From positions 1 through 39,164 of the IMG/VR virus record IMGVR_UViG_3300036651_000587: DNA of 39,164 nt. One strand, written 5' to 3'. The translations under genes and the position numbers were made by a program. Shown here in pieces: positions 32,254-33,250 of the stretch. Every line of letters begins with the position of its first letter. Within the stretch, counting starts at the first letter, position 1. The DNA comes from a virus. Under the pieces are notes generated by a model that worked only from the letters and a program-made list of their open reading frames with translations, was not told the DNA's origin and did no database searches.

Positions 32254-32402
32254 CTGCTCCCAGCATTGGCAAATTCAACCTGAACGACCTACTCGGCGCA
32301 TGGTTTTGCATTACAAATATGCACGACTTCCACCCAGAATACAAAGCTGCTGAATTGTTATTGACGGAATATTTTGACTGGCTTGAGGCAAATAGCGCTT
32401 GA
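32250..32402 (+). CDS. Small hypothetical protein
   Basis: 50 residues, ATGA-coupled to the winged-helix gene. An acidic, aromatic helix-rich sequence (FNLNDLLGAWFCITNMHDF). Its last codons overlap the -35 box of the candidate RNA promoter that follows. Function unknown. Confidence 0.6.
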   Translation: MTAPSIGKFNLNDLLGAWFCITNMHDFHPEYKAAELLLTEYFDWLEANSA

Positions 32403-32427
32403 CTCATAGCGCCAGATGGTGTGCAAT
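32399..32427 (+). promoter_or_regulatory. Sigma70-like promoter before gene-free region
   Basis: TTGACT (32399-32404), a 17-base spacer, and TGCAAT (32422-32427), matching the sigma70 consensus at 5 of 6 and 4 of 6 positions. A transcript would begin near 32434, at the start of the structured gene-free stretch. It lies at the end of a gene and is not needed to express the tightly coupled genes before it, so it most likely drives the downstream element. Confidence 0.6.
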
Positions 32428-32433
32428 ATACAT

Positions 32434-32850
32434 ATCTGCGGATTGGTAACCCGTGGTAGTCAGCGAACGACGAGCCGTAACCCTTTTCAGGAGAGCGGGC
32501 TTGTTATGCCAAAGGACACTGGGTCGCTCCATGTCTCTAGGCGGTCACCAGCCCTAGCCCGTTCCCTTGAGAAGGGTTTGTCGCTTGTGACCTCAAAAAC
32601 TGTATCCCCACCCGTACTCCACACGTCAGCAGTGGGCCTGCATGGGCCGCTTGGAGTAAAACACCGGCAGCGGAACACCCCCGCAACCAGCCGACCGGCC
32701 TTTTTGTCAGGGACCGAACAATACTCGCGCATAACGGTGGAAACAGGCGCTTGTAGATTGAATGACAGCCTCAAGGGACTCTGGTCAGCAATGATGGGAG
32801 AGGGCAGGAATCGTAGGGATTCCACCCTTGTAGGAACTATGGCTTAACAG
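32434..32850 (+). ncRNA. Candidate structured non-coding RNA (about 0.4 kb)
   Basis: This is the only long gap in a gene-dense phage (461 bases, 32403-32863). Nested inverted repeats cover most of it: 32494-32501 with 32556-32563 (8 bp, one G-U); 32514-32522 with 32529-32536; 32543-32548 with 32587-32592 (perfect GGTCAC, crossing the first, so a possible pseudoknot); 32564-32568 with 32572-32576; 32616-32621 with 32652-32657 enclosing two inner stems; 32665-32673 with 32681-32693; 32705-32709 with 32763-32767; 32801-32812 with 32818-32828 (10 bp with a small bulge). Frames across it look like chance openings rich in Ser, Thr, Arg. No match to tRNA, tmRNA, 6S, RNase P or group I intron landmarks was seen. 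A replication origin is the main alternative. The 3' end is uncertain. Confidence 0.55.
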
Positions 32851-32863
32851 AAATGGGGAACAA

Positions 32864-33250
32864 ATGAATGACGCTAAACGAGGTAAGTTGGCCTATGCGC
32901 TGACTAAACGGATGGTGATCGATATGCCGTCTGCGAGGGCTTTGGTTGATGATGCGGTCAACGACTCGGATGGCTGTCCGCATGGGTTTCGCTTTATCGT
33001 AAATGACTGCCTGAGATGCGGCGCTCCGATTTGTTGTGGTCGGTGTTGTTCTGAGGACGCACTTCTAGAAGGTGAGGCGACCGACGATATGGTCTATGCA
33101 TACCTTGAGGCGAATACAGCCTATTGGGAGCAGACTGACAAAATCCCCACACCACCAGGAAGGTGGAGAACCGGAACACCCAAAGAGGCAACAAAGGCGG
33201 GATTGCGTGCGGTGCTAGAACTGTTAAAGCGGAAAGAAGAAAATGACTGA
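32864..33250 (+). CDS. Hypothetical Cys-rich protein
   Basis: 128 residues. A Cys cluster CPHGFRFIVNDCLRCGAPICC then GRCC (about 38-62) suggests a small zinc-binding unit. The C-terminus is helical. GGGGA precedes the ATG. It is the first gene after the candidate RNA. Function unknown. Confidence 0.65.
   Translation: MNDAKRGKLAYALTKRMVIDMPSARALVDDAVNDSDGCPHGFRFIVNDCLRCGAPICCGRCCSEDALLEGEATDDMVYAYLEANTAYWEQTDKIPTPPGRWRTGTPKEATKAGLRAVLELLKRKEEND

Follow-up and report, generated by a model that had tools for sequence, protein, structure and literature searches.

Sequence comparison places positions 32434 to ~32845 (+ strand; both ends are approximate), a stretch matched by two covariance models, R1 and R2, of the phage genome analyzed here in a family of large structured noncoding RNAs that lies outside Rfam 15. 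We consider it likely that the family represents a stand-alone accessory phage RNA gene, whose noncoding product of ~400–480 nt would most likely act in trans. The window, i.e. the whole stretch of DNA analyzed, is the 39,164-base virus record IMGVR_UViG_3300036651_000587, by gene content a lambdoid-like tailed phage. It has a terminase gene and leftward-running Erf and SSB genes; its early operon runs rightward and includes an HNH gene along with genes for a replication-initiation protein, NinG and NinB. The RNA occupies a gap between a gene that stops at 32402 and one that starts at 32864. The original prediction had assigned this gap to a large structured RNA that has a promoter of its own, and this main point is supported by the existence of homologs, by covariation that includes pseudoknots, and by a promoter whose distance from the RNA 5′-end is conserved.

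At least 104 homologous elements (76 non-redundant) were collected, nearly all on contigs of uncultured tailed phages. Direct DNA searches, including one with the window copy alone as a query, revealed no relatives; the first ones were reached via the replication gene, as collinear similarity in locus L005 and a shorter stretch in L006. A conserved core pattern matched 48 viral stretches, which appear to be true elements with the exception of L024 and L050. The core covariance model R1 also matches L007–L010, which had been found without this pattern. A second pattern gave at least 120 matches; 71 out of 72 new loci among the matches listed also match R1. The window itself scores 99.7 bits against R1 (E 8e-25) and 97.4 bits against R2, but these scores are not independent tests since its sequence sits in the seeds of both models.

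The RNA is carried by 2 out of 50,697 GenBank phage records, both from Manatee Spring. GenBank hypothetical proteins annotated across the RNA in MW202484.1 (33533–33892) and MW202674.1 (5130–5377) are probably spurious. Three additional queries of the phage collection recovered only one of the two Manatee Spring phages again, or nothing. Five pattern matches were obtained in a collection of 84,980 genomes, and the only genuine one, in Zeimonas arvi, is the sole copy in a bacterial genome; a covariance model scan of the order to which Z. arvi belongs was positive for 1 of 399 genomes, while a class-level genome scan with R2 gave no matches and also missed the known positive. All 12 carrier records checked contain one RNA each. 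In L091, part of the RNA core is duplicated in tandem: a second GTCAGGGCGCG..GGGCTG..AAGAAACA precedes the core located at 2175 by ~70 nt. Ten divergent loci (L042, L061, L007–L010, L070, L082, L115 and L121) keep the core and are devoid of the typical H4/PK2 segment described below, which in L042, L061, L007 and L115 is replaced by a GGTGCAAATCC-like (T-loop-like) sequence; these relatives probably form a second subclass.

The promoter upstream of the RNA is sigma-70-like (32399–32427, + strand) and consists of a –35 element TTGACT (32399–32404), a 17-nt spacer and a –10 element TGCAAT (32422–32427). It had been recognized in the original prediction, though it begins 4 nt ahead of the start given there for the gene-free stretch. 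TGCAAT ends 8 nt before the first 5′ hairpin, P1; it is a weak –10 element, below the 4-of-6 score used for homologs, and the window promoter taken alone did not pass a consensus scan. Its placement, by contrast, is conserved in homologs. When elements were aligned on the first base of P1, the –10 hexamer ended 6–8 nt upstream in 34 out of 45 of them (75.6%), compared to 3.6% at control offsets; a –35 element is also present in many. Because the position of the –10 box before the 5′ hairpin is fixed to such an extent (76% versus 3.6%), we conclude that the RNA has its own promoter. In L035 and L123-type loci, a terminator hairpin lies just upstream of the RNA with TTGAC in its loop and a T-run that constitutes the promoter spacer, so that terminator and promoter are fused within about 35 nt.

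At the opposite end lies a conserved 3′ tail, CTTGTAGGAACTATGGCT (32827–32845, + strand), containing a start-codon-like CTATG (32837–32841) that here opens a 2-codon ORF. The RNA 3′-end was placed by the position where conservation across homologs stops, CTATG plus a few bases, and by an empty site found in a close relative (L183, see below).

All structural elements described below are on the + strand. The 5′ part starts with hairpin P1 (CTGCGG/CCGTGG, 32436–32456), whose loop TGGT pairs with ACCA at 32547–32550 to form pseudoknot PK1; both were derived by inspection of the window sequence and four relatives with the same 5′ type (L005, L033, L067 and L071). This type differs from the commonest one, type I, in which the first hairpin loop likewise pairs with a downstream strand, and this equivalent of PK1 covaries in 28 type-I sequences (E about 8e-7 for the best pair). 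A crossing helix P2, AGCGA (32462–32466)/TCGCT (32524–32528), has equivalents that were likewise identified by inspection: CTGACA/TGTCAG in L005, CTCGTAG/CTACGAG in L033, CACAAC/GTTGTG in L067 and CTACAC/GTGTAG in L071. In the centroid fold, 32479–32578 comprises a long hairpin P3 (AACCCTT..AAGGGTT, CGGGCT..AGCCCG) and, downstream of it, a U-rich tract; both have equivalents in homologs.

The core contains helix H2, formed by CTCCA (32617–32621) and TGGAG (32652–32656), whose pairs covary between GC, CG, AU and UA; it encloses a conserved hairpin AGCAGTGGGCCTGCATGGGCCGC (32628–32650). Helix H3 (CGGC/GCCG and GCGG/CCGC, 32664–32693) follows. In the 3′ part, helix H4 (32695–32716; 98% of alignment cells paired) exposes a loop TTGTCA (32704–32709), which is the first half of pseudoknot PK2, the second being TGACAG (32763–32768). 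Helix H5 (TAC..GCGC/GCGC..GTA, 32722–32755) exposes a loop GGTGGAA (32736–32742), the first half of PK3. The second half, TTCCACC (32820–32826), overlaps with helix H8 (GGAATC/GATTCC, 32807–32826), which was derived from the sequence. An enlarged A+T-rich insert was observed in the loop of another 3′ helix, H7, in L017, L103, L111 and L138.

Across homologs, pairing in the PK2 interaction between the H4 loop and the GAAT-TCGCTG segment extends to 99.5% of cells, and two-sided changes are seen in five out of six pairs; for the PK3 interaction between the H5 loop GGTGR and YCACC at the 3′-end, 100% of cells are paired. The window can form both pseudoknots, as TTGTCA/TGACAG and GGTGG/CCACC, and this agreement is an independent test since neither of them is contained in the models. 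For the 3′ domain, an alignment of 33 sequences (A4) was built without a structure model. In it, 92.9% of cells at the 37 proposed pairs are paired, compared to 35–45% in slid controls, and there are 256 two-sided changes versus 83 in shuffles. The core is supported likewise by the pairing comparison, apart from H1 and the inner H3 pairs, which are supported weakly or not at all. A tree-based covariation test on 57 sequences aligned with the covariance model, R-scape style but simplified, revealed about 20 pairs with E < 0.05, all mostly canonical and including those of PK2 and PK3. The covariation is decisive for an RNA fold, its three pseudoknots included.

Folding of the single window sequence is less telling: its minimum free energy of –161.4 corresponds to z = –1.02 on the + strand, with 20 out of 100 shuffles equally stable, and z = +0.86 was obtained for the – strand. 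Several stems, crossing ones among them, are present in the window as had been predicted, but the claim that their density exceeds chance does not hold by single-sequence energy; it holds for the covarying helices and pseudoknots shared with homologs.

No recurrent cognate neighbour protein was found across the loci examined. Flanking genes vary and encode replication-initiation, terminase, major head or Erf proteins, and the L013 copy runs antisense to both flanking genes, all genes nearby being on the opposite strand. In nine phages with near-identical major head proteins (93% or more), the RNA is present in eight and absent in L183, where the upstream terminator runs straight into the head-gene promoter (TTTTTTTGCCTA/GAAAATAGTTGACACA; the slash marks the junction). 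In L180, the RNA lies between sequences matching these flanks (GGTCTA/TACTTG..RNA..CTATGGCTA/AAAAAATAGTTGACACA). Because the close relative L183 lacks the RNA so cleanly, we regard the RNA as a discrete unit and not as a leader of the head gene. In these two phages (L180: 2335–2500; L183: 2330–2500), the stretch that separates the RNA, or the empty site, from the gene for the major head protein contains another conserved leader, which is rich in hairpins and has a promoter of its own (TGTGGATAACCCGTAAGGGCC...). Of the roles suggested in the original prediction, a regulator of early genes is disfavoured by the variety of neighbours, by antisense placement and by clean absence from a close relative, and the same observations disfavour a structured replication origin.

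Homology, structure, promoter position, noncoding nature, varied location and the presence or absence of the RNA as a cassette come directly out of the computation. From the sequence-level picture we infer that the RNA would be transcribed by host RNA polymerase from its own sigma-70-type promoter, starting with the first nucleotide of P1. The RNA folds in three linked parts: a 5′ part (P1, PK1, long hairpin and U-rich tract), a core rich in invariant positions (H1–H3), and a 3′ part in which H4, H5, H7 and H8 are tied together by PK2 and PK3. As a folded RNA or a ribonucleoprotein, it would then most likely act in trans on a host target, in the manner of a moron-like takeover or counter-defence RNA. 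Such a reading fits because the RNA has its own host-type promoter, occurs in a single copy at varied positions, is present or absent as a unit, and has a fold under selection. A single-copy RNA gene recurs in many unrelated environmental phages, its fold kept by selection while the gene is gained or lost as a clean cassette, which points to an RNA-based phage function that has been overlooked by databases and in cultured phages.

It is also conceivable, though we regard it as unlikely, that the RNA is a very long structured 5′ leader that controls in cis how the following gene is translated, similar to a riboswitch or a thermosensor. This reading keeps some weight because the start codon of the 3′ tail opens the next gene in some phages: 47 out of 56 elements have this codon, and in 14 it starts an ORF of at least 60 codons, which in several cases resembles a replication initiator. 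PK3 and H8, which vie for overlapping bases just upstream of the start codon, lie beside a Shine-Dalgarno-like stretch with the AUG at the 3′-end; the promoter sits at the RNA 5′-end; and a search for a terminator at the 3′-end of the window RNA was negative, which counts against a stand-alone gene. However, ORFs opened by the tail are mostly short (median of 12 codons, 15 or fewer in 27 out of 47, and 2 in the window), the downstream genes are unrelated among loci, a downstream gene on the sense strand is not general, as L013 demonstrates, and in L183, which lacks the RNA, the head gene retains a promoter and leader of its own. We read the 3′ tail as an RNA motif that serves as a translation start in some phages.

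The same tail suggests a more speculative and rather doubtful possibility, that the RNA engages host ribosomes to reprogram or poison host translation. The body with multiple pseudoknots would lead to a conserved G-rich stretch and the 3′ start codon, often with a stop a few codons on; the RNA could thereby capture initiating ribosomes as an internal-entry or trap RNA, to which a real gene may have been joined in some phages.

A catalytic role, as a ribozyme or an intron-like RNA, could be suspected from the compact fold with several pseudoknots and from near-invariant unpaired stretches, but we consider it very unlikely, as no Rfam ribozyme or intron matches and the position is intergenic, with no interrupted host gene seen. 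HNH genes near some copies, the window included, are what speaks for a guide or scaffold RNA of an RNA-guided nuclease (omega-RNA-like); a constant adjacent nuclease is absent, HEARO is unmatched in Rfam, and no variable guide segment was seen, making this highly improbable. Replication-initiation genes do follow the RNA in some phages, yet a DNA site, such as a structured replication origin, is hardly credible given that other copies adjoin terminase or head genes, that compensating changes obey RNA pairing, G-U included, and that the promoter is placed for transcription. Finally, there is next to no chance that the gap is a protein-coding gene: its 143-codon ORF (32416–32847), although uninterrupted in L005 and over the whole window copy, starts with an ATG upstream of the inferred transcription start, and its frame is open in just 11 out of 75 homologs and closed in the other 64. 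Searches of phage records and viral contigs revealed no relatives of the encoded protein, which matches no Pfam family and gave no significant match to PHROGs. There is no conserved reading frame across the family, and the stretch is gene-free, as had been claimed.

With Rfam 15 gathering thresholds, no match was found in the window or 14 homologous loci, and at E ≤ 10 there were chance matches only (in the window, one to a miRNA). The suggestion that the RNA is novel is therefore borne out, and comparison with Rfam, proposed together with GOLLD, ROOL and HEARO, gave no matching model. No earlier description of the RNA was found in the open-access literature. We rate the family as new because no described RNA family matches it in sequence or structure; in a looser sense, a large phage RNA of unknown role has precedents. 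ARAGORN detected no tmRNA (tRNA-like ends, tag frame) in the window or 60 loci. The put RNA of phage HK022 is a short, cis-acting antitermination RNA; it shares with the window RNA a structured nature and location in an early phage operon, but is far shorter, and copies of our family can be antisense to their neighbours or outside early operons. HEARO/omega-RNAs are, similarly, large structured RNAs of mobile elements and phages, and HNH genes occur near some family copies; in contrast to them, the family has no constant adjacent nuclease, of the IscB/IsrB type or other, and no Rfam match.

Nearest in kind are GOLLD and ROOL, both large phage RNAs whose function is poorly understood (PMC12286853), though Rfam models assign the family to neither. 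GOLLD, first found in lake and marine DNA, is a large ornate RNA encoded by phages and prophages, with a more variable 5′ part and a conserved 3′ part (PMC12286853). The family RNA is also large, phage-borne and variable in its 5′ but conserved in its 3′ part; it differs in size (about 400–480 nt versus over 800), in structure, in the lack of an Rfam match and in the lack of tRNA proximity, as tRNA genes occur in 3 out of 60 loci scanned and near the RNA in only two of those (L053 and L055). ROOL, a large RNA of phages and prophages with no known protein partner (PMC12286853), has several pseudoknots, as does the family RNA, which is smaller, lies outside tRNA islands, is almost absent from cultured genomes and has no Rfam match. 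A homo-oligomeric RNA cage is a characteristic of ROOL, and the family RNA may possibly work as an RNA particle like GOLLD or ROOL. Beside these two, the family adds a class of large RNAs with covariance models and well-defined ends.
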